Assembly: GCF_002786295.1 (NCBI RefSeq)
Contig: NZ_PGTC01000018.1
Location: 310,001-374,000, forward strand
Length of the DNA stretch: 64,000 bases
Source: Pseudooceanicola marinus
GTDB taxonomy: Bacteria; Pseudomonadota; Alphaproteobacteria; Rhodobacterales; Rhodobacteraceae
Direction: 5' to 3'
The notes under the pieces were generated by a model that searched no databases, was not told the DNA's origin, and saw only the letters and a program-made list of their open reading frames with translations. Position 1 is the first letter of the stretch. The number at the start of each line of letters is the position of its first letter. Shown piece after piece: positions 18,028 to 31,937 of this stretch. Position numbers and translations under genes: made by a program.

Positions 18028-18237
18028 TCAGCAGCTCTTGCAGGTCTTCAGGCCGATCAGGCTGTAGAGGGGGCAGTTGCCGATCACGGCGGTCAGCACC
18101 ATCACCGCGGCCACGATCAGGGCCAGCCAGTGCAGCAGGCCGGCGGCGGCCACCGCGCTGCCGAAGGCCAGCCAGACCAGCACCGCGGCAATGACCAGGC
18201 GCAGGGCGCGGTCGATCTTTCCCATGTTCACGGACAT
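18028..18237 (-). CDS. DUF2892 (YgaP-like) membrane protein
   Basis: A 69-residue inner-membrane protein with two hydrophobic segments. It has the DUF2892 pattern: GKIDRALRLVIAAVLV at the start, TAVIGNCPLYSLIG near the end, and a closing CKSC. This domain is the transmembrane part of YgaP-type rhodaneses, linked to sulfur metabolism. Here it stands alone. An exact GTGAC-N3-GTCAC inverted repeat lies 61 bases upstream of its start, the same site found before cydA and the 403-residue membrane protein gene. This places it in the same putative regulon. Confidence 0.82.
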   Translation of the reverse strand: MSVNMGKIDRALRLVIAAVLVWLAFGSAVAAAGLLHWLALIVAAVMVLTAVIGNCPLYSLIGLKTCKSC

Positions 18238-18297
18238 ATCGCATTCCTTTCCAGGATTTCAGAACGCCATCTTGCCACCGATGCCCCCGGACCCACG

Positions 18298-18310
18298 GTG
18301 ACCTTGTCAC
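18298..18310. promoter_or_regulatory. GTGAC-N3-GTCAC operator upstream of the DUF2892 gene
   Basis: Perfect 13-bp inverted repeat with spacer CTT, between the end of the Crp/Fnr gene and the DUF2892 start (minus strand). It is identical in both half-sites to the three other copies at 24803, 24824 and 30458. A Crp/Fnr-type site is the natural reading. Confidence 0.6.
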
Positions 18311-18334
18311 CAAACCTGCGGGATCCCGTGACGA

Positions 18335-19048
18335 TCAGCGCTCTCCGCCCCGCGCCAACCGGTCCAGCGCGTCCCGGTCCAGCAGGCAGACCGCACCGCG
18401 CGCCTGTTTCACCAGACCCCGTTTCTGGAAATCCGACAACAGGCGGCTGATGACCTCTCGCGCCGTGCCCAGCTCGGTGCCCAGCACCTGATGGGTGGCA
18501 TGGACCACGCCATCGGCATCCGCCAGCTCGACCAGCCGCCCGGCCAGGCGCACATCCAGCCGCTGGAAGACGATGTCGTCGATCAGGGTGAACAGATCGG
18601 TGATCCGCCGCGCATAAGCGCGGAAGACGAACTCGCGGAACACCCGGCTTTCGGCCACCAGCGCGTCGAAGGTGCCGCGCGGGATCTCGGCGGCCAGCAC
18701 CGGGGTTTCCGCGATGCCGGTGGTCGCGTAATCCTCGAAGGCCAGCATGCAGGCGGTGGTCAGAACGCAGCTTTCCCCGGCGTTCACCCGGTAGAGGAAG
18801 ACCTCGCGCCCCTGGTCGGAGCTTTGCTGGACCCGGACCGTGCCCGACAGCAGCAGCAGCAGGCGGTCGGCCTCCTGCCCCGGTTCGAACAGCACCGCAC
18901 CCTCCGGGAAGCGGCGCACGCGGCTGCCCCGCGCCAGGCGGTTACGGGTGTCGTCCGGCAGGGACTTCAGCCCGTCGAACCGGTCGATCCAGTTGGTCAG
19001 ACTGGCCTCGATCCTGTCGTCGGTATCGAGATTGGCGGTCTGGCTCAT
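18335..19048 (-). CDS. Crp/Fnr family transcriptional regulator (1)
   Basis: A 237-residue regulator. A cyclic-nucleotide-type beta-roll domain covers residues about 20-150, with PEGAVLFEPGQEADRLLLLLSG. A long dimer helix follows, then a C-terminal winged helix with recognition segment LGTAREVISRLLSDF. There is no N-terminal Cys cluster of the FNR iron-sulfur type. A C-x5-C pair (SCVLTTAC) sits in the sensor domain and could be a thiol switch. It follows the SLAC1 gene by 7 bases and is probably the last gene of the SQR-DUF5368-SLAC1 operon. Its helix is nearly the same as that of the second regulator at 28276-29097. Confidence 0.86.
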   Translation of the reverse strand: MSQTANLDTDDRIEASLTNWIDRFDGLKSLPDDTRNRLARGSRVRRFPEGAVLFEPGQEADRLLLLLSGTVRVQQSSDQGREVFLYRVNAGESCVLTTACMLAFEDYATTGIAETPVLAAEIPRGTFDALVAESRVFREFVFRAYARRITDLFTLIDDIVFQRLDVRLAGRLVELADADGVVHATHQVLGTELGTAREVISRLLSDFQKRGLVKQARGAVCLLDRDALDRLARGGER

Positions 19049-19055
19049 CTCCGTT

Positions 19056-20018
19056 TCACTCCGGTATGCAGATCTGATGGGCGGCGGCGGCCCGGGCGGT
19101 GCGCAGGATCAGCGCCGCGATGGTCACCACAAGGACCGCCAGCAGGACATGGCCAAGCCCCAGATGGAAGCCCGAGCCGGTGAGCGCGGCAAAGCGGAAG
19201 CTGGCCGTGGTGATCGCCGCCAGCGGGAAGGACAGCGCCCAGAAGCTGAGGGCGAAGGGCAGTTTCAGCAGCGCGGGCACCTGGATCGCCACCAGCGCGG
19301 TGAAGAAATAGCCCACGTTCAGCAGGATGCGCGCCATGGCGTCCACCTGCCCGCCCTGCAATTTCATCCAAGCCAGGAACCCCACGGCGGGCGGGGCCAC
19401 CAGAATGACCAGCGTCGGGCGCAACTTGCCCGGCAGCGGATCGTGGAAGATCAGCCGGTTGAAGACCAGCGTCAGCAGCACCACCCAGAAGATCATGCCG
19501 ACGGCGAAGAAATACCAGCTGAGCTCGACATAGCCCAGGGGTACGCCGGCCAGCGGGGCGATGACATTGCCCACGGCCGGGATGAACCAGGCCGGCGACA
19601 GCTGCTGCGGCCCGAAGGCCCGGGCCGAGATCCAGGCGGAGATGACGACCAGCGTCAGCACCGCCTGCACTGCCACGCCAACCAGCCAGATGCCCTCTGC
19701 CGCGGGCGGCGAGACCTCGCGCAGGAAGGTGGCCAGCAGGATCAGCGAGATCGAGGTAGCCGGAAAGAAGGCCAGCCGCACCGGATGGTGCCATTCGGCC
19801 TTCAACGCCTCCCAGTGCAGCGCGGCCTTGGCGGCCAGCGCCAGAACCAGCGCGGCGAAGACCACCAGCGCCGCTGCCCCGACCCAGTGGGCAGAGGTCG
19901 TCAGACCGCCCGCGTGCAGGGCCAGAGCCAGGCCGAACAGCCCCATGGACATGCCGAAGAAGGAGATCGGGAAATGTTCCAGCCGCGAGGGCCGCGGGGC
20001 ACTGGTGGCGTCGGTCAT
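19056..20018 (-). CDS. SLAC1/TehA-family anion channel
   Basis: A 320-residue polytopic membrane protein with about ten hydrophobic segments. It shows the tellurite-resistance/dicarboxylate transporter (TehA, SLAC1) pattern: HFPISFFGMSMGLFGLALAL at the start, PAWFIPAVGNVIAPLAG and FALSFWALSFPLAAIT later. Family members pass anions, including sulfite or nitrate in some cases. The start overlaps the stop of the upstream DUF5368 gene by four bases. Between an SQR-like gene and a regulator, export of an oxidised sulfur anion is a reasonable guess but unproven. Confidence 0.85.
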   Translation of the reverse strand: MTDATSAPRPSRLEHFPISFFGMSMGLFGLALALHAGGLTTSAHWVGAAALVVFAALVLALAAKAALHWEALKAEWHHPVRLAFFPATSISLILLATFLREVSPPAAEGIWLVGVAVQAVLTLVVISAWISARAFGPQQLSPAWFIPAVGNVIAPLAGVPLGYVELSWYFFAVGMIFWVVLLTLVFNRLIFHDPLPGKLRPTLVILVAPPAVGFLAWMKLQGGQVDAMARILLNVGYFFTALVAIQVPALLKLPFALSFWALSFPLAAITTASFRFAALTGSGFHLGLGHVLLAVLVVTIAALILRTARAAAAHQICIPE

Positions 20019-20371
20019 TCCTCAGATCTCCGTCCGGTCAGAAGGGATTGCGCCGTGTAGACGAGGATTGCCATGCCGATGGCCCCGACCACGGCCACCG
20101 CCAACAGGACGATCACGTCGATCGGCCCGCCGATGTCCTCGAACCCGGAATGGGTCATCGCCTGCACGAAGATCACGGCGGCCACGGCGCCCACGGGCAT
20201 CGACAGCTGCGCCAGCAGGAACTTGCGCCAGCTGACCGCGCGGTCACGGATCAGCACGTAGAGATAGGCCAGCGTCACCACGGCGGCGGCGGCAACCATG
20301 GCCCAGAACAGCCCGCGCCCGAAAATCTCCTCGAAGACGGCGATCAGGGTGCTGAATGTCATGTCCTTCAT
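20015..20371 (-). CDS. Small three-helix membrane protein (DUF5368-like)
   Basis: A 118-residue protein with three clear transmembrane segments (about residues 20-42, 52-73 and 83-108). I believe this is the DUF5368 family, but no function is known to me. It begins 15 bases after the SQR stop and overlaps the SLAC1 start by four bases (ATGA). It is thus translationally coupled to the channel and may be its accessory subunit. Confidence 0.7.
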   Translation of the reverse strand: MKDMTFSTLIAVFEEIFGRGLFWAMVAAAAVVTLAYLYVLIRDRAVSWRKFLLAQLSMPVGAVAAVIFVQAMTHSGFEDIGGPIDVIVLLAVAVVGAIGMAILVYTAQSLLTGRRSEE

Positions 20372-20386
20372 GGTCTGTCCTCCTCC

Positions 20387-21685
20387 TCAGGCGCGGCCGC
20401 GCAGCATGGCGTTATAGGTGGCCTTCAGCGCAACTTCCTTCATCAGCCAGCTGATCCACAGCTCTTCCAGCGGCGCGATCACGCCCGGGAAACTGGGGGT
20501 CAGGTTGTTGTGGTAGTCGAACTCCACCAGCATTGCCCGGCCCACGCGGGTGATCAACGGGCAAGAGGTGTAGCCGTCGTAATAGCCTGTCCCCTCCTTG
20601 CCTTCGATGGCGGCGACGAGGTGATCCTCGACCACCGGCACCTGCCATTTTACGCTCGCCGCCGTCTTGCCCTTGGGCACGCCCGCGACGTCGCCCAGGG
20701 CGAAGATCGACGGGTAGCGCAGGTGGCGCAAGCTGTGCATGTCGACCTCGGCCCAACCCTGGTCGACCCATCGGTCGGCCCAGGCGAGGCCCGATTGCAC
20801 CACGAAATCCGGCGCGCGCTGCGGCGGGATGACGTGCAGGTAGTCGTAATCGCGTTCCTCCAGCCCGGTCTCGGTGCGGAAGGTGGCGCGTTTGGCACCC
20901 GGTTCGACCGCGACCAGGGTCGACTGCATCATCGTATCGATGCCGCGATCCTCGAACAGCATCCGCACCTTTTCCGCCACGATCGGCACGCCGAACAGGC
21001 TGCCCTGCGGCGCGGCATAGACCACCTCGCGCGCGGCGCCGTGGCGCTTGGCGATATCGTCGATCAGGAAGGTATGCTTCAGCGGCGCACCGGCGCATTT
21101 CATCTCTGTCGCGGGCCGGGTGAAGATGCCCACCCCGCCCTCTTCGGTGAAACGGCCCGCGGCCTCCCAGGTCTTCGCGGCGTAGTCCGGCCCGGCATAA
21201 AGCGCTCCGATGCCGTCGCGGCCCACCAGATCCAGCGAGAAGCCCTCGATCGCGTCGTGGTCCAGCACCAGCCCCGGCGCCACGACCAGCCAGTCATAGT
21301 CCAGGACCTCGCCGCCCTCGGTGGCGACGGTCTTCGCCTCCGGGTCGACGGCAGCCACGCGGTCGGGGATCAGATCCACGCCGTCGGGCAGCCAGTCTGT
21401 GGTCATCGACACCACGTAATCGGCGGGCTTCAGCCCTGTTGCCACCAGCGACAGCCCGGGCTGGTAAAGGTGATCGCGGCGCGGGTCGATCAGGGTGATC
21501 TGCGCCCCGTCCAGACGCCGCACCAGCCGGTTGGCCAGGGAGGTACCTGCGGCCCCCGCGCCGATGATGACGATCCGGGCGGTCGTTTCGACCGGATCAG
21601 GTTGCGGCGCGGCCTGTGTGCCCGTCGCGATACTGGCGGTCGCCCCGAGCGCCGCCAGTTTCAGGAAATCTCTGCGGTCTACCAT
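20387..21685 (-). CDS. Tat-exported sulfide:quinone reductase-like flavoprotein
   Basis: A 432-residue FAD-dependent oxidoreductase. It starts with a Tat-type signal, MVDRRDFLKLAALGATASIA, followed by an Ala-rich segment ending TQAA. The FAD-binding GxGxxG is IIGAGAAGTSLANRL near residue 40. Two Cys match those conserved in sulfide:quinone reductases, in TEMKCAGAPLKH and in GYTSCPLITRVG. A second FAD contact is IFALGDVAGVPKGKT. The ATG is preceded by GGAGAG, so the signal starts at residue 1. It oxidises sulfide or a similar thiol and passes electrons to quinone. Next to cytochrome bd genes this could form a sulfide-to-oxygen chain. Flavocytochrome-type partners are absent. Confidence 0.82.
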   Translation of the reverse strand: MVDRRDFLKLAALGATASIATGTQAAPQPDPVETTARIVIIGAGAAGTSLANRLVRRLDGAQITLIDPRRDHLYQPGLSLVATGLKPADYVVSMTTDWLPDGVDLIPDRVAAVDPEAKTVATEGGEVLDYDWLVVAPGLVLDHDAIEGFSLDLVGRDGIGALYAGPDYAAKTWEAAGRFTEEGGVGIFTRPATEMKCAGAPLKHTFLIDDIAKRHGAAREVVYAAPQGSLFGVPIVAEKVRMLFEDRGIDTMMQSTLVAVEPGAKRATFRTETGLEERDYDYLHVIPPQRAPDFVVQSGLAWADRWVDQGWAEVDMHSLRHLRYPSIFALGDVAGVPKGKTAASVKWQVPVVEDHLVAAIEGKEGTGYYDGYTSCPLITRVGRAMLVEFDYHNNLTPSFPGVIAPLEELWISWLMKEVALKATYNAMLRGRA

Positions 21686-21738
21686 GCCGCTCTCCTCCAC
21701 CACGTTCGGGGCACCCCACGGACCCGGTCCCTTCGAAA

Positions 21739-21782
21739 TGCCCCGGCCGGCCCCCTCCCCATGAGGATCCCCGGCCGGGGCA
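21739..21782 (-). terminator. Long stem-loop between cydX and the SQR gene
   Basis: A perfect 12-bp stem (TGCCCCGGCCGG / CCGGCCGGGGCA) with a 20-base loop, just after the cydX stop on the minus strand and followed by a short TTTCG. It probably ends or attenuates cydABX transcription before the SQR operon. Confidence 0.6.
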
Positions 21783-21789
21783 GTTGGCG

Positions 21790-21918
21790 TCAGTTGCCGC
21801 CTGCCTCGTCATGCTCGTCGGCCAGGCGACGGTCGCGTTGCATTTCCAGCCACATCGCGTTCATCACGGCGAAGATGGCGGCCAGCGGAAGGCCCAGAAG
21901 CCAGGCAAAGTACCACAT
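21790..21918 (-). CDS. cydX: Cytochrome bd small subunit CydX
   Basis: A 42-residue single-pass membrane protein directly after cydB (19-base gap). It starts MWYFAWLLGLPLAAIFAVMN, the CydX/YbgT pattern, with a charged tail (EMQRDRRLADEHDEAGGN). CydX stabilises the haems of the CydAB oxidase. It is short enough to be missed by gene finders. Operon position and sequence agree, so confidence is high. Confidence 0.9.
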   Translation of the reverse strand: MWYFAWLLGLPLAAIFAVMNAMWLEMQRDRRLADEHDEAGGN

Positions 21919-21937
21919 TTGAACTGTTCCTTTCGTG

Positions 21938-23098
21938 TCAGTAGCTGTGCGACGAGCCGGTCACGTCATCTTCGGTCACCTTGCCCCACAGGACTTTGTA
22001 GACCCAGGCGGTGTAGGCCAGGATCAGCGGCATGAAGATCAGCGCGCAGACCAGCATGATGAACAGCGTGCGATGCGACGACGAGGCGTCCCAGACCGTC
22101 AGCGAGGAGGCTGGATCCACCGTGGACGGCAGGATGAAGGGGAACATCGTCAGCCCGACCGAGCTGATGACGCCGAGGATCCCCAGCTTCGAGAACAGCA
22201 GGGTCGAGACCTCACGCCGGGACCGCAGGCCCAGCACCGCCAGCCCCATCCCGAGGAAGCCGAGCGCGGGCGCAATGGCGATCCAGGGCCGCTCGGCATA
22301 GGCCGAAAGCCAGGAACCGCCGCGTGCGACCTCGCTGTAGAGCGGGTTCGACGGACCATTGGCAACCACGTCGGAGGTGAGGGTGAACCCGTCCACCCCG
22401 AAGGCCAGCCAGACCCCGGCCAGGGCATAGGCGACGATGGCCACGATCCCCGCGACAGAGCCCATGCGACGGGCGCGGGCATTGATCTCGCCTTCCGTCT
22501 TCAGCGCCAGCCAGGCGGCGCCGTGCATTATCAGCATGGCAAAGCTGACCACGCCCGACAGGATCGCGAAGGGCCGCAGCAGGCCTAGGAACTTGCCGTA
22601 GAAGGTGCCGTCATACATCGGCATCAAGAGGTCGTTCAGGTGGAAGGGCACGCCCAGCATGGCATTGCCCACGGCCACCCCGAAGAGCAGCGCCGGACCG
22701 GCCCCGCCGACGAACAGCGCCCAGTCCCAGCCCGAGCGCCAGCGCGCGCTTTCGCGTTTCGAGCGGTACTTGAACCCCACGGGCCGCAGGATGAAGCAGG
22801 CCAGCACGGCGAACATCGCCAAGTAGAAGCCCGAGAAGCTGACCGCGTAGAGTGGCGGCCAGGCGGCGAAGATGGCGCCACCGCCGAGGATGAACCACAC
22901 CTGGTTGCCTTCCCAGACCGGGCCGACGGTGTTGATCACCACCCGGCGTTCCACGTCGGTCTTGGCCACGAAGGGCAGCAGCGCGCCAACCCCCATGTCG
23001 AAACCGTCGGTCAGGGCAAAGCCGATCAGAAGGACGCCCAGAAGCACCCACCAGATCACCCGCAGCACGTCATAGCTGATAAGTTCGTAAAGGATCAT
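21938..23098 (-). CDS. cydB: Cytochrome bd ubiquinol oxidase subunit II
   Basis: A 386-residue polytopic subunit. The family start is visible as VIWWVLLGVLLIGFALTDGFDMGVG, here split over the first helix and loop, followed by GPVWEGNQVWFILGGG. Length is normal. CydB pairs with CydA and carries no haem. It starts five bases after the cydA stop, so the two are translated together, followed by cydX. Confidence 0.95.
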   Translation of the reverse strand: MILYELISYDVLRVIWWVLLGVLLIGFALTDGFDMGVGALLPFVAKTDVERRVVINTVGPVWEGNQVWFILGGGAIFAAWPPLYAVSFSGFYLAMFAVLACFILRPVGFKYRSKRESARWRSGWDWALFVGGAGPALLFGVAVGNAMLGVPFHLNDLLMPMYDGTFYGKFLGLLRPFAILSGVVSFAMLIMHGAAWLALKTEGEINARARRMGSVAGIVAIVAYALAGVWLAFGVDGFTLTSDVVANGPSNPLYSEVARGGSWLSAYAERPWIAIAPALGFLGMGLAVLGLRSRREVSTLLFSKLGILGVISSVGLTMFPFILPSTVDPASSLTVWDASSSHRTLFIMLVCALIFMPLILAYTAWVYKVLWGKVTEDDVTGSSHSY

Positions 23099-23103
23099 GG
23101 TTC

Positions 23104-24702
23104 TTACTCCGCGGCAGCGATGGCGGGATCGGCCTGAAGCCGGGCCGCGTGCCGCTCTTCCCAGATTTCGGTTTCGTCGACATCTTCGGTCGGGCCCTTG
23201 CGGATGTATTTGATCATCAGACCCATCTCGATGATGAAGAGCACGCTGTAGAAGGTGACGAAGCCGGCAAGCGTCAGCAGCAGGTCACCGACCGACAGGT
23301 GGCTGACCGACAGCGCGGTTGGCAGGACCCCGTCGACGGTCCACGGCTGGCGTCCGAACTCGGCCACGAACCAGCCCAGCTCGGCGGCAATCCAGGGCGC
23401 CGGGATCAGCCAGACGGCCGCATGCAGGGCCCAACGGGGGTAGCTTTGCCCGTAGAAGCTCGACCGGATGAAGAAGTAGGCCATCATGCCGATGAAGCCG
23501 AAGCCGAGACCGACCATGATCCGGAAGGCCCAGAACAGCGGGAAGACGCCGGGGATGGTGTCATTGGCGGCCTGGGTGATCATCTCGGGCGTGGCGGTGC
23601 GCGGATCGTCGGTATAGCGCATCAGCAGCATGGCAAAGCCGAGGTCCTCGGAATGCTGCTCAAAGGTGGCGCGGACATCGGCCGGGGTCGCGTCGCGCTG
23701 TTCGCGGATGGTCATCAGCGCGTCATAGGCGATGATGCCATTTTCGATGCGATCATGCGCCTCGTCGACCAATTCGTTGATCCCGGGGATCTCCTCGGTC
23801 AGGGACCGGGTGCCGATCAGGCCCATGGCCCAGGGGATATGCACCGCGTAATGGGTTTCGCGCGCCTCCTTGTCGGGGATGCCGACCAGGGTGAAATGCG
23901 CTGGCGCTTCCTCGGTCTCCCACATGGCCTCAATGGCGGCCAGTTTCATCTTCTGGGTGTGGCTGGCGGAATAGCCCGACTCGTCCCCCAGAACGACGAC
24001 CGACAGGGCCGAGGCCAGGCCGAAGCTGGCGGCGACGGTGATCGAGCGTTTGGCCAGGCGCGTATGACGCCCCCGCAGCATGTAGAAGGCCGAGACCCCC
24101 AGCACGAAGACCGAGGCAGTGACGTAGCCCGCGCTGACGGTGTGCACGAACTTGGCCTGGGCCACCTCGTTGAACAGCACGTCGAAGAAGCTGGTCATCT
24201 CCATCCTCATGGTGTCGGGGTTGAACTCCGCCCCCACCGGGTTCTGCATCCAACCGTTGGCGATCAGGATCCACAGCGCCGAGAAGTTGGAGCCGAGCGC
24301 GACCAGCCAGGCAACGACGAGGTGAGCCACCTTGCTCAGCTTGTCCCAACCGAAGAAGAAAAGGCCGACGAAGGTCGCTTCGAGGAAGAAGGCCATCAGC
24401 CCCTCGATCGCCAGAGGCGCCCCGAAGATGTCGCCAACGTAGTGGCTGTAATAGCTCCAGTTCATGCCGAACTGGAATTCCATGGTGATGCCGGTAGCAA
24501 CGCCGAGGACGAAGTTGATACCGAACAACGTCCCCCAGAACTTGGTCATCTGGCGCCATATCGGGCGTCCGGTCATGACATAGACCGTCTCCATGATCGC
24601 CACGAGGATCGAAAGACCCAACGTCAGCGGCACGAAGAGGAAGTGGTACATGGCTGTCATTGCAAATTGCAGTCGTGACAGCTCAACGATGTCGAGCTCC
24701 AT
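23104..24702 (-). CDS. cydA: Cytochrome bd ubiquinol oxidase subunit I
   Basis: A 532-residue catalytic subunit that oxidises quinol and reduces oxygen in the inner membrane. It starts MELDIVELSRLQFAMTAMYH, with the haem b595 His in the MYHFLFV segment. The haem b558 His is in FVHTVSAGYV, and the quinol-site GRQPW motif is present. The region after GLIGTRSLTEE aligns with the long Q-loop of E. coli type bd-I rather than the short loop of cyanide-insensitive oxidases. AAGGAGG lies 6 bases before this ATG. Two tandem GTGAC-N3-GTCAC sites lie 101-134 bases upstream, in the gap after cydC, so cydABX likely has its own regulated promoter. Confidence 0.95.
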   Translation of the reverse strand: MELDIVELSRLQFAMTAMYHFLFVPLTLGLSILVAIMETVYVMTGRPIWRQMTKFWGTLFGINFVLGVATGITMEFQFGMNWSYYSHYVGDIFGAPLAIEGLMAFFLEATFVGLFFFGWDKLSKVAHLVVAWLVALGSNFSALWILIANGWMQNPVGAEFNPDTMRMEMTSFFDVLFNEVAQAKFVHTVSAGYVTASVFVLGVSAFYMLRGRHTRLAKRSITVAASFGLASALSVVVLGDESGYSASHTQKMKLAAIEAMWETEEAPAHFTLVGIPDKEARETHYAVHIPWAMGLIGTRSLTEEIPGINELVDEAHDRIENGIIAYDALMTIREQRDATPADVRATFEQHSEDLGFAMLLMRYTDDPRTATPEMITQAANDTIPGVFPLFWAFRIMVGLGFGFIGMMAYFFIRSSFYGQSYPRWALHAAVWLIPAPWIAAELGWFVAEFGRQPWTVDGVLPTALSVSHLSVGDLLLTLAGFVTFYSVLFIIEMGLMIKYIRKGPTEDVDETEIWEERHAARLQADPAIAAAE

Positions 24703-24802
24703 CTCTGGCCTCCTTGCTTGGGAGAGCGCCGCGGGGGAGAAAACACGACTCGGCCACTCTCCAATTGTCCCGGGCATAGCCCCGCCGGACTGAATTCCTG
24801 TG

Positions 24803-24815
24803 TGACTTCGTCACC
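24803..24815. promoter_or_regulatory. GTGAC-N3-GTCAC operator, proximal copy at cydA
   Basis: Perfect 13-bp inverted repeat with spacer TTC, 101 bases upstream of the cydA ATG. Its centre is 21 bases, two helical turns, from the next copy. This is the spacing expected for two dimers bound on the same DNA face. Confidence 0.65.
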
Positions 24816-24823
24816 AAGGGCAG

Positions 24824-24836
24824 TGACGTCGTCACA
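24824..24836. promoter_or_regulatory. GTGAC-N3-GTCAC operator, distal copy at cydA
   Basis: Perfect 13-bp inverted repeat with spacer GTC, located between the cydC stop and the proximal copy. Both half-sites are identical to those of the other three copies in the window. Confidence 0.65.
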
Positions 24837-24889
24837 ATACTTACTGGAATTTCGAGTTCAGTTTTTGACCTGAGGCAAAACCGACAGCC

Positions 24890-26500
24890 TCAGGGGCGGG
24901 AAATGGTGAGTCGCTCGGTAAAGATTACGTGATCCCCGCCACGGTGCAATGTCGCGAGGATCGCGCTGTCGGGCAGCGCGGCGCGCAGATTGTCCAGCAC
25001 GCGGGTCGCGGTTTCCAGGTCCAGCCCCTCGGTCGGTTCGTCCAGCAGCAGCAGATCGGGCGCGCGCAGAACACAGCGCGCCAGCGCCAGGCGCCGCGAT
25101 TGCCCGCCCGAGAGGCCCGCGCCACTCTCCCCCAGCCGGGCGTCCAGCCCGCCGCGATCGCGCACAACGGCGTCGAGGGCCACGACCTGCAGCGCCTGCA
25201 AGAGCGTATCATCCGTGGCCTCGGGCGCGGCCAGGGCCAGGTTGTCGCGGATCGTCCCGGCGATCAGGGCGGAGCGTTGCGGCAGCATGGCGACCCGGGC
25301 GCGCAGGGCGCCCTCGGTCCAGTTTTCGGGCGCATGGCCGGCGATGGCGATCCCTTCACCCGCCATCAGGCCCGCGATGCGCAGCAGCAGCGTGGTCTTG
25401 CCCACGCCCGAGGGCCCTTCCAGCGCCAGCGCCTCGCCCCGGTTCAGGGTGAACCGAGCCTCGGGGCGGTCGATCGACAGGATCGGCGCCTCTGCCCGCT
25501 CCGTCTCCTGTCCTTCCCTGTCGTCGCCGGGCGCAGATGCCCCGGGATCGACGCGAGAGGCCGCATCGACCATGCGGCCCAGCTCGGCAAAGCCCCGGCG
25601 CAGCGGCAGCACGGTCTCGGCCAGGGCCAGCGCCACGAAGATGCCGATGGCCGCACGGGCCGGGTCCAGCCCGCCCGCTTGGGCCAGCCAGCCGCCCGCC
25701 ACCAGCGCGCCCGCCACCGACAGTGCCACCAGCGCCGAGAGCCGCGCGCCGGCGCGCCGTTCGGCGCGATCCAGCGCCCCCGAGGCGGCGCGCGCACGTT
25801 GGTCGCCCGCGCGAAGCGCCGTTTCCCGGGCCGCCAGCTGGCCGCCCAGGATCAGCGCCTCGCGGTCGCGGATCATGTCGATCATGCCACGGCGCAGGGC
25901 CTGCGCCTCGCGCTCGCCCTCCCGCGAGGGGGCCATGCCCGACCGCGCCAGCAGTGCCAGCACCAGCGCCGCCAGCGGCAGGTAAATCGCGGCCACGGTC
26001 AGCGCCACAGGCCACCCCGCCAGCCAGCCCAGCATCGCGAAGACGACCGCATGGGTCAGCAGCGCCGCGAAGACCGGCAGCGCCAGGCGCAGCACCAGCC
26101 CGTCCAGCGCATCCACATCTGCCAGGATGCGGGTCAGCGTGGCCTCGCTGCGCAGTCGCGCCAGCGCCCGCCCCCCGGCCCGCGCCTGGCGGCGCAGCAG
26201 GTCCACCCGCAGCGCAGCCAGCGCCCGCAGCGTGGCGTCATGGGTCAGCAGACGCTCGCCATAGCGCGCCGCCGTCCGCCCCAGGGCCAGCAGCCGCACG
26301 CCCGCCGAGGGCTGGAAGACGTTGAAGGCGATGCCGATCCCCGCAAGTCCCGCCAGCCCGGTCGCGGTGATGAACCAGCCCGACAGCCCCAGCAGGGCCA
26401 CGCCCATCAGCAAAACGGTGACGGCCAGCGCCGCGCCGCGCGCCATGGCCTTGGGGCTGGCGCCCAGCAACAGCTTCAGAACCCGCCAGAGCGCCCTCAT
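24890..26500 (-). CDS. cydC: Thiol exporter ABC subunit CydC
   Basis: A 536-residue half-transporter: an N-terminal membrane domain of about six helices and a C-terminal ATPase. Walker A is GPSGVGKTT, the signature is LSGGQSRRL and Walker B is LLLLDEPTEGLD. CydDC exports glutathione and cysteine to the periplasm and is needed for cytochrome bd assembly. Its ATG overlaps the cydD stop by four bases. cydA follows after a 187-base gap containing the tandem operators. Confidence 0.92.
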   Translation of the reverse strand: MRALWRVLKLLLGASPKAMARGAALAVTVLLMGVALLGLSGWFITATGLAGLAGIGIAFNVFQPSAGVRLLALGRTAARYGERLLTHDATLRALAALRVDLLRRQARAGGRALARLRSEATLTRILADVDALDGLVLRLALPVFAALLTHAVVFAMLGWLAGWPVALTVAAIYLPLAALVLALLARSGMAPSREGEREAQALRRGMIDMIRDREALILGGQLAARETALRAGDQRARAASGALDRAERRAGARLSALVALSVAGALVAGGWLAQAGGLDPARAAIGIFVALALAETVLPLRRGFAELGRMVDAASRVDPGASAPGDDREGQETERAEAPILSIDRPEARFTLNRGEALALEGPSGVGKTTLLLRIAGLMAGEGIAIAGHAPENWTEGALRARVAMLPQRSALIAGTIRDNLALAAPEATDDTLLQALQVVALDAVVRDRGGLDARLGESGAGLSGGQSRRLALARCVLRAPDLLLLDEPTEGLDLETATRVLDNLRAALPDSAILATLHRGGDHVIFTERLTISRP

Positions 26501-28245
26501 GCCTCGTTCTCCCCGGTCATGACGATCTGCGCATCTATCTCCCCGGCCAGCGCCGGGTCATGGGTCGCCACGACCAGCGCCGCCCCCTGCCCCTGCAACC
26601 GGCGCAACGCGCGGGTCACCCGGTCGGCGGTCAGCGCATCCAGGTCCGCCGTCGGTTCATCCGCCAGCACCAGATCGGCGTCCTGCAGCACCGCGCGGGC
26701 GATCATCAGCCGCCGCGCTTCGCCGCCCGAAACGCCGCCACCGCTTTCGCCCAGCCGCGTTTGCAGACCCTCGGGCAGGCGATCGATCACGGCGCGGGCC
26801 TCGGCCAGATCCAGCGCCTCAGTGATCGTGCTTTCGCCCATCGCTCGCCCGCCCGACAGCCAGTCGCTCAGGGGCAGGTCCGGGAAATGCACCCGCTGCG
26901 GCACAACGGCGAGACGCGCGCGCCAGCCGTCTGCCGTGCCGGCGTTCAGCTCCTGCCCGCAGACCTCGATCCGGCCCTCGACCAGCGGCACCAGCCCGGC
27001 CAGCGCCGACAGCGCCGTGGACTTGCCCACGCCAGAGGGCCCGACGAGCGCCAGGCTCTGTCCCGCCCCGACGTCCAGGTCCGGCAGGGGCAGCGCTCGG
27101 CCCGGGAGGAAGGCAACCCCGCCCCGCATCGAAACCGACAGCGGCCCGGGCAGCGGCGTGGCCTGCGCCCCCTCCCCCAGCAAGGCGACGCGCGGCGCGG
27201 CGTCCATCGCCTCCAACTCCTCCACGACCGACACACCCGAGGCGCGGTCGTGCCAGGCGGCGGCCAGATCGCGCAGGGGCTGGAAGAACTCCGGGGCGAT
27301 CAGCAGCAGGAATATCCCTTCGTAAAGCGTAAGCCCATTGCCCCAACTGCCCCAGCCGACCTCGCCCAGCAGGGTGAAACCGACGAAGACCGCAACCATG
27401 GCCACGCCGATGGCGGCGAAGAGCTCCAGCACGGTGGAGCTGAGGAAGGCGATGCGCAGCACCGCCATGGTCTTCTCGCGCAGGCGGTCCGCGCGGGTCT
27501 CGAAATCCTCGGCCGCGCGGGCCCGCGCCCCCAGCAGGCGTATGTCCAGCAAGGCCGACAGCCGGTCCATCAGCATGGAGTTCATGTCGCCGATCTCATC
27601 CATCTGGCGGCGGCTGGCGTCCTCGGCCGCCATGCCGACCAGGGCCATGAAGACGGGGATCAGCGGCCCGGCGACCAGCAGGACGACCCCGATGGCCCAG
27701 GAGAACCAGAAGGCCACGGCCAGATAGACCAGCGGAATGACCGAGGTGCGCAGCATGGCGACGTGGTAGCGGGTGATCCAGGGATGCAGTAGCGGCAATT
27801 TCTGCACCGCCAGCGCGGCCACGGCGGCGGAGCCTGCCCCGCCGGGACGCCGCGCCTCGCGGCCGATCAGCAGCTCGCGTTCGCGCGCGATCGTCTCATC
27901 CGCTGCGCGGTAGAGGATGCCGCCCGCCACCCGGTCGAGCCCTGCGCGGATCAACCCGCAGAGCAAGAAGATCCCGGCCGCCCAGAGGCTGCGCTCCAGC
28001 GCGAGGGCGCCGCTGGCCCAGCCCGAGACGGCCCAAGCGATGGCGGCGGCCTGCACCGGCCAGAGAAGACCCGACAGGATGCTCAGGAGGCCGGCTCGGC
28101 GCAGCAGAGGTTTCACCGGGGCGATGATGCGGTCCTGCATGGCGGCGCGGGCGGCCCGGCGGTCTCCGGGCGGAGCCGCATCGGGCACCGCCTGTGCCGT
28201 TTCGGGATCCAACCCGGCACCGTCCGGCAACGCAACGTCCTGCAT
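26497..28245 (-). CDS. cydD: Thiol exporter ABC subunit CydD
   Basis: A 582-residue half-transporter and partner of CydC. The first 35 residues are an Ala/Pro-rich extension. A six-helix membrane domain follows, then an ATPase domain with Walker A GPSGVGKST, signature VSGGEARRL and Walker B LVLADEPTADLD. It overlaps cydC (ATGA). It starts 30 bases after the stop of a Crp/Fnr regulator gene, suggesting a regulator-cydD-cydC transcript. Confidence 0.92.
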   Translation of the reverse strand: MQDVALPDGAGLDPETAQAVPDAAPPGDRRAARAAMQDRIIAPVKPLLRRAGLLSILSGLLWPVQAAAIAWAVSGWASGALALERSLWAAGIFLLCGLIRAGLDRVAGGILYRAADETIARERELLIGREARRPGGAGSAAVAALAVQKLPLLHPWITRYHVAMLRTSVIPLVYLAVAFWFSWAIGVVLLVAGPLIPVFMALVGMAAEDASRRQMDEIGDMNSMLMDRLSALLDIRLLGARARAAEDFETRADRLREKTMAVLRIAFLSSTVLELFAAIGVAMVAVFVGFTLLGEVGWGSWGNGLTLYEGIFLLLIAPEFFQPLRDLAAAWHDRASGVSVVEELEAMDAAPRVALLGEGAQATPLPGPLSVSMRGGVAFLPGRALPLPDLDVGAGQSLALVGPSGVGKSTALSALAGLVPLVEGRIEVCGQELNAGTADGWRARLAVVPQRVHFPDLPLSDWLSGGRAMGESTITEALDLAEARAVIDRLPEGLQTRLGESGGGVSGGEARRLMIARAVLQDADLVLADEPTADLDALTADRVTRALRRLQGQGAALVVATHDPALAGEIDAQIVMTGENEA

Positions 28246-28275
28246 CTGGCCTCGCCTCTTCTGCCCTGCCGGGGC

Positions 28276-29097
28276 TCAGCGGCGCCCGGTCTTGCTGTTG
28301 TCGGCGCTGGCCTCCCGCTCGCGCGTCCTGTCGTTCTCGGGCCGCTGGCCCGATGTGCTGCCCCAGGCGGTCTGGCCCCGCGCCACGCGGCTCAGCGCCG
28401 CCGCCCCGGTCAGACGGATCGTGCCGCGCCCCTGCTCGATCCAGCCTTGGCGGGCGAACGCCCGCAGGCGGCGGGAAATGACCTCGCGCGCAGTGACCAG
28501 ATCGGCGGCCATGGCCTGGTGCGTCGTCTCTACCGTATCCGCGCGCGCATTTGCCAGTAGCCATTCCGCCACGCGCTGTTCCATGCTGAGGGTGACAGGC
28601 CCCGCAACACGCTGGAAGAAATAGGGCAAACGCCTTGCATGCTGGGCAAACAACGCCTGACGAAAGCCTGCGTCCTCCGCCACGAGGCGACGGAACGCCG
28701 CAGGATCCAGCGTCAGCCAGCGGGTCCTCTCCAGGCAATGGGCGGCCACCGACAGGCCGGTACCCGACAGGATCGCTGCCGTCACCGGCATGCAGTCCTG
28801 CCCCGCGTTGGCCCGGCATTCCGCCATGGGCACCAACCGGTTGCGCGTGTGAAACCGCACCGACAGGCGTCCCGTCACCAGCAGGACAAAACCCCGCGGC
28901 GGGCCGAACCAGCGGAAGGCAAGGGCCCCGGCCGCGGCCTCCTGCTGGCGTCCGCCCGCCGCGCGCACGGCCGCCACCAGGTCGCGGGCCGCCGCGGCTG
29001 TGGGGGCGTCGGGACAGGGCGCGTCCAGGGGGACCCGCGGCCCGGACCGGGCGGAGGTCTCCGGCGGGGTCCCGAAGGCATGGGAAACAGGGGGCAT
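28276..29097 (-). CDS. Crp/Fnr family transcriptional regulator (2)
   Basis: A 273-residue regulator with a long Ala/Pro-rich N-terminal extension. A diverged beta-roll sensor domain carries NAGQDCMPVTAAIL, with one Cys at the place of the first Cys of regulator 1. A dimer helix follows, then a winged helix with recognition segment LVTAREVISRRLRAF. The C-terminal 35 residues are polar and likely disordered. No FNR-type N-terminal Cys cluster is present. It directly precedes cydD. The shared TAREVISR helix suggests that it and regulator 1 compete for or share the same operators. Confidence 0.82.
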   Translation of the reverse strand: MPPVSHAFGTPPETSARSGPRVPLDAPCPDAPTAAAARDLVAAVRAAGGRQQEAAAGALAFRWFGPPRGFVLLVTGRLSVRFHTRNRLVPMAECRANAGQDCMPVTAAILSGTGLSVAAHCLERTRWLTLDPAAFRRLVAEDAGFRQALFAQHARRLPYFFQRVAGPVTLSMEQRVAEWLLANARADTVETTHQAMAADLVTAREVISRRLRAFARQGWIEQGRGTIRLTGAAALSRVARGQTAWGSTSGQRPENDRTREREASADNSKTGRR

Positions 29098-29131
29098 GGC
29101 AGCGGCTCCTGGGCTACGGGTCGCGAGGAGA

Positions 29132-29162
29132 GACCCCGCCCGGGCAGCTGCCGGGCGGGGTC
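29132..29162 (-). terminator. Stem-loop between the 403-residue membrane protein gene and regulator 2
   Basis: A 12-bp perfect stem (GACCCCGCCCGG / CCGGGCGGGGTC) with a 7-base loop, after the minus-strand membrane protein gene. There is no T-run, so it is a plausible but unproven terminator separating it from the downstream regulator-cydDC unit. Confidence 0.5.
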
Positions 29163-29190
29163 GGGGGTCACCAGGACCGGGGCGCGCGGA

Positions 29191-30402
29191 TCATTCCGCG
29201 GGCACTTGGGCCGGGGCGCGCCGCGCCAGGAAGTGGCGGCGGTTCAGCACCACCAGCAGCAGGATCATCGACAGCTGCAGCGCCACGGCCACCCCGCTCA
29301 GCATCCAGAAGGCGGTGCCGAACTTGGCGATCAGTCCGACCGCGACCAGACCCTTGTTGATCCAGAAGTGCATCAGCACCGACAGGGCCACGCCCGGGCA
29401 GATCAGCGCGTAGGAGCCGACCGAAGCCTCCGACCCGGTGACGAAGCGGCGGATATAGCCCGTGGCCGCCAGGATCGTCAGGCCGAAGAGGGTGAAGCCC
29501 AGCTGCACTGATAGCATCCGCGTCAGGAAGACCAGCATGTCCGCCGGGGTGGAATGGCCGCCGAAATGGACGTGCAGCGCATGATCCAGACGCACCAGCA
29601 GGATGCTGAGGACGGTGACCATCGGCATCACGATCAACAGGGTCGGCGCCTGTTCAACGGCGACGCCATGTTCCAGCATCGACCGCACGCCCAACACCAG
29701 CTTCACCGCGCCGTAGATCACCGCGATCACCAAGAAGACGGTGGCCAGAACAAAGGCCACTCCGGCGGTCGCCGTCACGCCGCTCATCGCCGCCGGGGCT
29801 GCCAGGCCCACGCCGACCATCGACAGGGCGAAGGCGGGCAGCATCTGCGACAGGGAATTGTTGGCGGTCCAGTCAAAGCCGCCATGGCCGATCACCTGGG
29901 ACAGGTAACGCCCCACCTGGCGCAAGGCCAGCAGACCCACGGCGAGGAAGGCCGCCAGAGCCAGCGGGAAAAGGTACTCCACCACGCCCCAGAGGCCGGG
30001 CACGAAGACCAGACCGAGGATGAACAGGGCGTTGATCGACATGGCCAGCGCCAGCGGCATCGCCGTCATCTGGGTCTGCCCCTGCCCGCCCGCCAGGGCC
30101 GTGCCGGCGGGCGAGCGCAGGAAGGCCCCGGTGCGCCGCAGGTTCCAGACCAGCAGGTAAAGGTTCATCGCGGCGAAGACGGCAATGCCCGCCAGGGCCA
30201 GGTAGATGGTCGCGGCAAACGGCGGGCTGGCGGTGACCAGAGCCGCGCCGATGTCTTCGGCCACCGGCACCGGCTGACCGGGGTGCGGCACCCAGAACAT
30301 CAGGTACATGAAGAAGGTCACGGCGAGGCCACCGGCCCCGACCGAAGTCAGGTAATAAAGCGGCGACCATTGGTCAGCCGGACGGGTCACGCGGGACATC
30401 AT
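29191..30402 (-). CDS. Polytopic membrane protein of the cyd island
   Basis: A 403-residue protein with about ten hydrophobic segments. The start reads MMSRVTRPADQWSPLYYLTS, then AGGLAVTFFMYLMFWVPHPG. I faintly associate it with the family named TsoY, related in layout to TehA/SLAC1 proteins, but am not sure. The start at 30402 was preferred over 30414 because GGAGG sits 5 bases before it; 30399 is also possible. A GTGAC-N3-GTCAC site lies 56 bases upstream, linking it to cydA and the DUF2892 gene. A role in handling small inorganic anions or sulfur species is guesswork from context. Confidence 0.68.
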   Translation of the reverse strand: MMSRVTRPADQWSPLYYLTSVGAGGLAVTFFMYLMFWVPHPGQPVPVAEDIGAALVTASPPFAATIYLALAGIAVFAAMNLYLLVWNLRRTGAFLRSPAGTALAGGQGQTQMTAMPLALAMSINALFILGLVFVPGLWGVVEYLFPLALAAFLAVGLLALRQVGRYLSQVIGHGGFDWTANNSLSQMLPAFALSMVGVGLAAPAAMSGVTATAGVAFVLATVFLVIAVIYGAVKLVLGVRSMLEHGVAVEQAPTLLIVMPMVTVLSILLVRLDHALHVHFGGHSTPADMLVFLTRMLSVQLGFTLFGLTILAATGYIRRFVTGSEASVGSYALICPGVALSVLMHFWINKGLVAVGLIAKFGTAFWMLSGVAVALQLSMILLLVVLNRRHFLARRAPAQVPAE

Positions 30403-30457
30403 CAAATCCTCCATTGGATATCTGATCCGATCCTACGCCCCTTTCCCGCGGCCCTCA

Positions 30458-30470
30458 GTGACATGGTCAC
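30458..30470. promoter_or_regulatory. GTGAC-N3-GTCAC operator upstream of the 403-residue membrane protein gene
   Basis: Perfect 13-bp inverted repeat with spacer ATG, in the divergent region between this gene and pepT. It is about 56 bases from the membrane protein start and over 200 from pepT, so it most likely serves the former. Confidence 0.6.
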
Positions 30471-30698: not shown

Positions 30699-31937
30699 AT
30701 GTCCGCCACGTTCGCCCCCGATCTGGAAACCCGCCTGACCCGCTACTGCGCCGTCGACAGCCAGTCCGACGCCCTGTCGCCCACCTCGCCCAGCACCACG
30801 ATCCAGTGGGACATGATCCGCCTGCTGGAGGCCGAGCTGCGAGAGATCGGCGCCGAGGAGGTCGAGGTCACCGACTACGGCGCCGTGCTGGCCACCGTGC
30901 CGGGCACCGCCCCGGGGCCGACGGTCGGCTTCTGCGCCCATTTCGACACCGCTCCGCAGTACAATGCGACGGACGTCAAACCGCGGGTCATCCGGGGCTA
31001 CAACGGCGGCGACATCACCTACCCAGACGCGCCGGATCTGGTGCTGTCGCCAAAGGATTTCCCCTATCTCGCCGAAAAGCAGGGCCATGACATCGTCACC
31101 GCCTCGGGCCTGACCCTTCTGGGCGCCGACGACAAGGCGGGCATCGCCATCATCATGACGGCGGCCAAGCACCTGATCGACAATCCCGAAATCGCCCGCC
31201 CGAAGATTCGCATCGCCTTCACCCCGGACGAGGAGATCGGCCGTGGCGTGGACAGGCGCCTGCCGGAAGATTTCGCCTGCGACTTCGCCTATACCTACGA
31301 CGGCGCCGAGGTGGGGGAAGTGATCTATGAGACCTTCTCCGCCGACATCGCCCATGTCACCGTCACCGGCGTCTCGATCCATCCCGGGCAGGCCACGGGC
31401 AAGCTGGTCTCGGCCATCCAGCTGGCGTCGAAGGTCATCACTGCCCTGCCCGCCCATACGATGACCCCGGACACCACGAAGGACTACGAGGGTTTCATCC
31501 ACTGCACCGACATGACAGGCGACGCCGCCGAGATGAAGCTGACCTTCATTCTGCGCGATTTTGAGCGGGACGGGCTGGCGCAGAAGGGGGAGATCCTGAC
31601 GAAGATCTGCGATGCCGTCGGCGCGTCAGAGCCCCGCGCGCAGATCAAATGCGAGATCACCGAGCAGTATCGCAACATGCGCTATTGGCTGGAAAACGAC
31701 ATGACGCCGGTGGAACTGGCCCGCGATGCCACCCGCGCGCTTGGGGTGGAGCCGATTTCGGTGCCGATCCGCGGCGGCACCGACGGCTCGCGCCTCACGG
31801 AAATGGGGGTGCCCACGCCCAACCTCTTCACCGGCATGCAATGCATCCACGGGCCGCTGGAATGGATCTCCGTCCAGGACATGGAAGTGGCGACCAGCCT
31901 GATGCTGCAGATCGCGGACAAGGCGGTGAGCAAGTAA
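30699..31937 (+). CDS. pepT: Peptidase T (tripeptide aminopeptidase)
   Basis: A 412-residue cytoplasmic M20B zinc peptidase that removes the N-terminal residue of tripeptides. Zinc-site motifs in order are GFCAHFDTAP, LLGADDKAG, TPDEEIGRGV and SIHPGQATGKL. The C-terminal RGGTDGSRLTEMGVPTPN is typical. AAGGAG lies 6 bases before the chosen ATG. Length fits the family. It stands alone between the cyd island and a convergent sugar dehydrogenase gene. Confidence 0.94.
   Translation: MSATFAPDLETRLTRYCAVDSQSDALSPTSPSTTIQWDMIRLLEAELREIGAEEVEVTDYGAVLATVPGTAPGPTVGFCAHFDTAPQYNATDVKPRVIRGYNGGDITYPDAPDLVLSPKDFPYLAEKQGHDIVTASGLTLLGADDKAGIAIIMTAAKHLIDNPEIARPKIRIAFTPDEEIGRGVDRRLPEDFACDFAYTYDGAEVGEVIYETFSADIAHVTVTGVSIHPGQATGKLVSAIQLASKVITALPAHTMTPDTTKDYEGFIHCTDMTGDAAEMKLTFILRDFERDGLAQKGEILTKICDAVGASEPRAQIKCEITEQYRNMRYWLENDMTPVELARDATRALGVEPISVPIRGGTDGSRLTEMGVPTPNLFTGMQCIHGPLEWISVQDMEVATSLMLQIADKAVSK

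Follow-up and report, generated by a model that had tools for sequence, protein, structure and literature searches.

In the 64-kb stretch of Pseudooceanicola marinus DNA analysed here (the window; contig NZ_PGTC01000018.1, positions 310,001 to 374,000), the inverted repeat GTGAC-N3-GTCAC occurs in four exact copies. Judging from sequence, these palindromes are very probably operators of a subfamily of Crp/Fnr regulators, a 13-bp site at which class II activation would serve a regulon of sulfide and cytochrome bd oxidase genes. The proteins reading the operator would be Crp1, encoded directly beside the first site, its paralogue beside a YeeE/YedE pair elsewhere in the genome, and probably Crp2, encoded in the same gene island.

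Exact sites and their linkage to Crp1-type genes

The chance expectation for the exact repeat in 64 kb is 0.04, and none of 100 shuffles reached four sites. With up to two mismatches allowed, the window held 28 sites against 27.4 expected, which is background, indicating that among the GTGAC-N3-GTCAC forms in the window only the exact one is exceptional. An earlier note on this DNA had reported four such sites upstream of genes of one island, and both statements hold: all four are intergenic and lie before DUF2892, cydA (two sites) or a TsoY-family gene. Its positions for the outer sites, 18298 and 30458, were correct, while those for the two cydA sites (24803 and 24824) were one base too high. 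The operators are as follows.

18298..18310, minus strand: operator 1 (GTGACAAGGTCAC in gene direction), before DUF2892 and directly 3′ of the Crp1 gene
24802..24814, minus strand: operator 2, the proximal cydA site, an exact match
24823..24835, minus strand: operator 3, the distal cydA site, its centre 21 bp (two helical turns) from that of operator 2
30458..30470, minus strand: operator 4, before TsoY

Operator 1 stands 60 bp before DUF2892 (start 18237), the cydA operators 99 bp before the likely cydA start at 24702, and operator 4 43 bp before the TsoY-family gene (start 30414). The whole genome (4.5 Mb) contains seven exact sites, six of them upstream of genes, and the reversed-pattern control gave none. 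Outside the window, one site (L001) is flanked by the YeeE/YedE pair and a Crp/Fnr gene with 65% identity to Crp1, another (L002) lies 66 bp before two carboxymuconolactone decarboxylase (CMD)-type genes, the first of which was domain-scanned, and a third (L007, contig C29) reads as coding, inside an open frame, and is taken as chance. In the sister genome G018 the TsoY operator and both cydA operators are exact, the site 3′ of Crp1 has one change, and the CMD-pair site is present with the same genes; the operator before TsoY is also exact in loci L087, L200, L201 and L204. A one-mismatch site at 31087-31099, inside the pepT open frame, is probably there by chance.

GTDB genomes were searched for relatives of Crp1 and its paralogue; of the 84 obtained, the best 80 were used, and these are 57-98% identical to Crp1. 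Around these genes, 79 exact gap-3 sites were found in 71 of the 80 loci, where about one was expected, and the same half-site at other gaps occurred 0 to 8 times. GTGAC-N3-GTCAC ranked first among 5-mer inverted repeats with gaps of 0-12, runs of N aside, and the FNR operator, TTGAT-N4-ATCAA, was present once against the 79. Measured from the crp 3′ end, the site fell at -8 to +179 bp in 62 of the 80 loci, and at sequence level the link to Crp/Fnr genes that had been suggested for the window alone extends to Crp1-type genes across genera. The claim that the half-sites are invariant while the spacers differ is true of the genome itself and not strictly of its relatives, in which GTGACNNNATCAC variants occur, the site 3′ of Crp1 in the sister genome among them, and the spacer is constrained, with A or T as the central base in 58 of 58 sites.

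The operator incorporates the crp stop codon in 25 of the 80 loci (site at -3 or -8; L061, L062, L096, L103 and others), either as the TGA of GTGAC or as a TAG in the spacer. This overlap, together with a perfect stem and a 3-base loop, would suit a hairpin at the end of the crp gene, acting as a terminator or RNA element. That explanation is hardly credible, as -10 columns follow the site and, mostly, a gene about 60 bp on, and as the same palindrome precedes cydA, SQR-like, TsoY and CMD genes at places away from any crp 3′ end.

Half-site spacing and promoter geometry

Spacing was surveyed at 246 crp-like genes in 244 loci, after 11 repeats had been dropped and identical proteins merged, in the 280 bp from -20 to +260 of the crp 3′ end. 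Genes were classed by the recognition helix, and since the AREV class demands S, T or N after the helix, three AREV..G proteins (L334, L340 and L267), of which L340 has N5, are counted as others. GTGA-N5-TCAC was found at 130 of 175 AREV genes and the CRP-like N6 form at one, while among the 71 remaining crp-like genes N6 was found at 16 and N5 at five. Control intervals 5′ of the same genes gave N5 at 3/175 AREV genes, and N5 at 3/71 and N6 at 4/71 of the others. Of the 131 AREV genes with an N5 or N6 site, 130 thus show a geometry unlike that of CRP, as first proposed for the window.

Loci were also grouped by distance, with 20 loci in each group. Within the family, genomes with 51-62% identity to Crp1 had nine exact gap-3 sites and one at another gap, and those with 36-45% identity had 12 gap-3 sites, nine of these having the form TGTGA-N5-TCACA and none occurring with N6, and two at another gap. 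More distant Crp/Fnr loci of the family had no GTGAC-N3-GTCAC and four TGTGA-N6-TCACA, as did those of other families (0 and 4). Loci from other classes had two gap-3 and six gap-4 sites, and those from other alphaproteobacterial families six and four.

The helices of the N6 group are VREM, VREI and AREM, and DUF2892 accompanies 8 of the 16 N6 genes outside the AREV class. As this group shares the crp-operator-DUF2892 layout, the spacing appears to have changed within one module. A quick tree, built from 73 rows after thinning at 70% identity inside each label, has four changes of the spacing label, two of them forced by starred branches. The association of AREV with spacing has a Fisher p of 2e-16, computed without regard to kinship; independent pairs on starred branches number two to four, never contrary and below significance. 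With so few independent switches, helix residue and spacing are associated, and cause and effect are not proven.

These data bear on whether another regulator, for example a RegA/PrrA-type response regulator, binds the palindrome while the crp genes are mere neighbours. RegA/PrrA-type regulators read degenerate GNGNC half-sites and redox regulators often control cydAB; moreover, linkage does not amount to binding, crp genes were the basis on which the loci were selected, and how many 13-mers a genome has tracks the presence of Crp1 only weakly. Such an alternative is nevertheless improbable, because half-sites and gap are fixed in loci of more than one class, the gap follows the type of Crp recognition helix (130:1 against 5:16), and other Crp/Fnr genes have CRP spacing at the same place. 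We also take the GTGA half-site to fit an R-E-x-x-S-R helix, as in CRP, which counts against another regulator.

Operator and promoter were then aligned by column. In 58 non-redundant sites (of the 62), TG at +27/+28 (78 and 84%) and A at +31 (84%) mark an extended -10 with its hexamer at +30 to +35, and in 68 further sites, free of near-duplicates, a TATAAT-like hexamer lies at +29 to +34 (T68 A81 T41 A34 A40 T62). A -10 at +29 or +30 from the operator centre places that centre at about -41 or -42. At least four of the six TATAAT letters were present at +29/+30 in 16 of the 58 and 31 of the 68 sites, whereas control offsets gave 1.7 and 3.1 on average and at most 8 and 6; the -10 signal is clear on average and not in every site. 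There was no TTGACA-like peak at +7, the expected -35 position, in the 58 sites; peaks of this kind lay within the operator, over the -10 (+26) and, weakly, at +50. Read column by column over the 58 and 68 sites, the features of a class II promoter are therefore present in the sequence: a centre near -41.5, a -10, and a replaced -35. In the window the putative -10 elements are these.

18269..18274, minus strand: CAAGAT, 3/6 to TATAAT, with TG in front, 30 bp from the centre of operator 1
24773..24778, minus strand: TATGCC, 3/6, 30 bp from the centre of the proximal cydA operator
30430..30435, minus strand: TAGGAT, 4/6, 29 bp from the centre of operator 4

At many promoters an operator at -41 would also obstruct RNA polymerase, and the Crp proteins could bind and repress, with sulfide relieving the repression as with SqrR and BigR. 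This is unlikely: with no -35 conserved at the right distance from the -10, the promoters look activator-dependent, and class II Crp/Fnr activators occupy this same position (about -41.5; Fnr/Dnr promoters, in passages of PMC5398030). A degenerate genome-wide scan for operator plus -10 was set aside; it returned two exact matches (YeeE and DUF2892) and three with one mismatch, one at cydA and two elsewhere, and its two-mismatch list is largely noise, because the reversed control produced 15 and 24 matches where the true pattern had 30 and 39.

Targets, regulators and the proposed signal

DUF2892 lies no more than 900 bp downstream of 115 of the 130 AREV genes with N5, in the order crp-operator-DUF2892, and accompanies 9 of 44 siteless AREV genes and 4 of 50 siteless other genes. 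For the 119 N5 genes with DUF2892, whatever their helix, the distance between the end of the site and the start of the domain has a median of 61 bp (quartiles 59-66). Among sites outside the crp-linked position, five precede cydA, in four loci; SQR-like genes are preceded by a site in three loci, and TsoY, TDT and a YeeE-type gene in a single locus each. This pattern was repeated in wider and further stretches, partly on the same contigs. Two sites had no such target (L119, at 7345, and L092, at 828, inside cydB). The regulon of cytochrome bd and SQR genes envisaged in the earlier note therefore recurs elsewhere, before cydA, SQR-like and TsoY genes, and it is wider than the island, with YeeE/YedE and CMD genes included and DUF2892 as the commonest target.

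At L277, L278 and L279 the helix GRAFV[ST]R replaces AREV[IV]SR, yet an N5 site lies over the stop codon and DUF2892 lies downstream.

Both regulators of the window carry the Crp-type helix-turn-helix PF13545 (Crp1, 3.8e-15; Crp2, 1.3e-11), Crp1 also matches the cNMP-binding domain PF00027 (2.3e-14), and neither matched ArsR in the Pfam scan. Crp1 has cysteines only at 94, 100 and 221 and lacks the FNR-type N-terminal cluster. All 82 Crp1-type proteins have Cys94, and 79 of them have Cys100; the 36-45% group keeps Cys94 in 20 of 20, and Crp2 keeps the residue aligned to it. In an alignment with GlxR, the ligand Glu and Arg positions of the sensor pocket, which are cAMP ligands in CRP, correspond to Thr98 and Tyr107 of Crp1. 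Among relatives with a solved structure the best score was that of 3dv8, which is listed only as a Crp/Fnr-family regulator and carries CLLSASC and REVITR at the corresponding places.

From these sequences we infer a mechanism in which a Crp1-type dimer would read two CRP-like GTGA half-sites whose centres are one bp closer than in CRP (GTGA-N5-TCAC, not N6) and, sitting at about -41/-42 in place of a -35 box, would bring about class II activation. Its targets would be sulfide-handling genes, namely DUF2892, SQR-like, TsoY, TDT, and YeeE/YedE with a metallo-beta-lactamase-fold protein (probably a persulfide dioxygenase), as well as the bd oxidase and its CydDC exporter. Both the targets and the cysteine point to sulfide or sulfane sulfur as the likely signal, which would be sensed via Cys94, with Cys100 where present, these residues apparently standing where cAMP-binding relatives hold their ligand. 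For the Alphaproteobacteria and at least one other class of the phylum, we give even chances to the broader proposal of a Crp/Fnr subfamily with CRP-type half-sites ten rather than eleven bp apart, centre to centre, in which spacing switched with helix residues (AREV with N5; VREM, VREI or AREM with N6), and which would be a persulfide-responsive activator with Cys94 replacing the cyclic-nucleotide pocket.

Several observations weigh against this picture. Of 43 bare 13-mers sampled in relatives (the first listed from each of 30 genomes, plus 13 others), only 6 lie near regulon or crp genes, so that the absence of random scatter expected in the earlier note was borne out in the genome itself and only in part in its relatives, where 37 of the 43 copies are away from these genes. 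At least one exact 13-mer is held by 139 of 149 family genomes; the median number per genome is 4.5 with a Crp1 hit of at least 50% (n = 36) against 3.0 without a hit of at least 35% (n = 78; p = 0.018), and it is not raised with a 35-49% hit (median 2, n = 35; p = 0.27). Whole-genome counts separate genomes with and without Crp1 only weakly and were rejected as proof, and because the bare 13-mer is not diagnostic, specificity must come from a fuller site (about TYKGTGACSWWGTCACCRA in the 58-site set) plus the -10. In the spacing survey, 44 of 175 AREV genes had neither spacing in the 280 bp, L163 has N6 as the only exception on the AREV side, N5 occurs at five genes outside the class (L277-L279, GRAFV[ST]R; L320, SREV; L340, AREVIGR), and the counts are not independent of kinship. 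Crp2 has no Pfam cNMP-binding match, though it aligns to Crp1 through the sensor region, and Cys100 is present in only 3 of 20 proteins of the 36-45% group, where it is mostly missing, so that a two-cysteine mechanism cannot hold for all. Finally, the -10 hexamers of the genome itself are weak, with 3 or 4 of 6 letters (DUF2892, cydA and CMD 3/6 at +30; YeeE 5/6 at +32 or 3/6 at +30).

The system envisaged resembles CRP and its class II promoters in the Crp/Fnr helix-turn-helix, the GTGA half-site and a centre near -41.5, and differs in having N5 rather than N6, ligand residues that are not kept, a conserved cysteine in that region, and other targets. With FNR, FnrL and DNR it shares the superfamily and the class II position, whereas Crp1 is without N-terminal cysteines and the site is not TTGAT-N4-ATCAA. 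Among the sulfide and persulfide regulators named in passages of two papers (CstR, SqrR, BigR, PigS and FisR; PMC9774590, PMC7315123), SqrR and BigR (ArsR), CstR and FisR are alike in controlling sulfide-oxidation or YeeE/YedE-PDO genes. They belong to protein families other than Crp/Fnr, however, SqrR, BigR and CstR (CsoR family) being repressors and FisR a sigma54-dependent activator. The same passages describe the Crp of A. baumannii as persulfidated, with an effect given there as unknown. In Dinoroseobacter shibae, the relevant part of PMC5398030 places DnrB and DnrC in Crp/Fnr subgroup B and reports no role found for them; they are alike by gene arrangement, being a pair of Crp/Fnr genes whose locus numbers differ by seven, in a genome of the Roseobacter group. 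In PMC6710368, DUF2892 is mentioned in a single table line, which concerns NnrR in Bradyrhizobium.

Searches of the open-access literature, judged by titles and abstract starts, turned up no paper about a Crp/Fnr regulator controlling these genes, nor was the string GTGACNNNGTCAC found there in this spelling. The analysis would thus supply a precise operator, promoter layout and gene list for a Crp/Fnr group without a stated role in the literature found, and it suggests how Rhodobacterales may couple sulfide oxidation to bd oxidase. If true, a persulfide-responsive Crp/Fnr activator would be a route of sulfide control apart from SqrR, CstR and FisR. The operator also presents a natural 1-bp change of spacing within one of the best-studied DNA-binding families.

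Genes of the island

The island lies on the minus strand in the order TsoY-Crp2-cydD-cydC, cydA-cydB-SQR-like-DUF5368-TDT-Crp1, DUF2892, and the whole of it is found in the same order in G018.

18028..18237, minus strand: DUF2892 (YgaP-like transmembrane) small membrane protein, 69 aa; the relative in L069 matches PF11127
18335..19048, minus strand: Crp1, Crp/Fnr regulator, recognition helix TAREVISR, Cys94 and Cys100
19056..20018, minus strand: TDT/SLAC1-type transporter
20015..20371, minus strand: DUF5368 membrane protein
20387..21703, minus strand: SQR-like FAD oxidoreductase; type III SQR model at 201.5 bits, under the cut-off of 525; weak Tat-leader match
21938..23098, minus strand: cydB
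23104..24702, minus strand: cydA, start most likely 24702; a longer open reading frame begins at 24777
24890..26500, minus strand: cydC
26497..28245, minus strand: cydD
28276..29097, minus strand: Crp2, divergent Crp/Fnr protein with the same helix TAREVISR, aligned Cys kept
29191..30414, minus strand: TsoY-family membrane protein, 407 aa; NF047644 at 483 bits against a cut-off of 150

The start of cydA is likelier to be 24702 because the transcript start expected at about 24767 lies inside the longest reading frame. The membrane protein behind operator 4 had been described as 403 residues, which is its length from an inner Met and not that of the full frame; TsoY probably heads one TsoY-Crp2-cydDC transcription unit, with a shared transcript presumed. 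TsoY was rejected as a marker of the regulon, with a match in 9 of 60 genomes, this one included, and the exact site and the island were not found in seven fetched TsoY stretches (L048-L054, one of only 7.8 kb). The TsoY homologues of those stretches are 51-58% identical and have no cyd island within the stretch fetched. In relatives L078, L202, L203, L206 and L209, a second SQR-like gene, 37-39% identical to the SQR-like protein of the window, follows a gene for a metallo-beta-lactamase-fold protein, a probable PDO.

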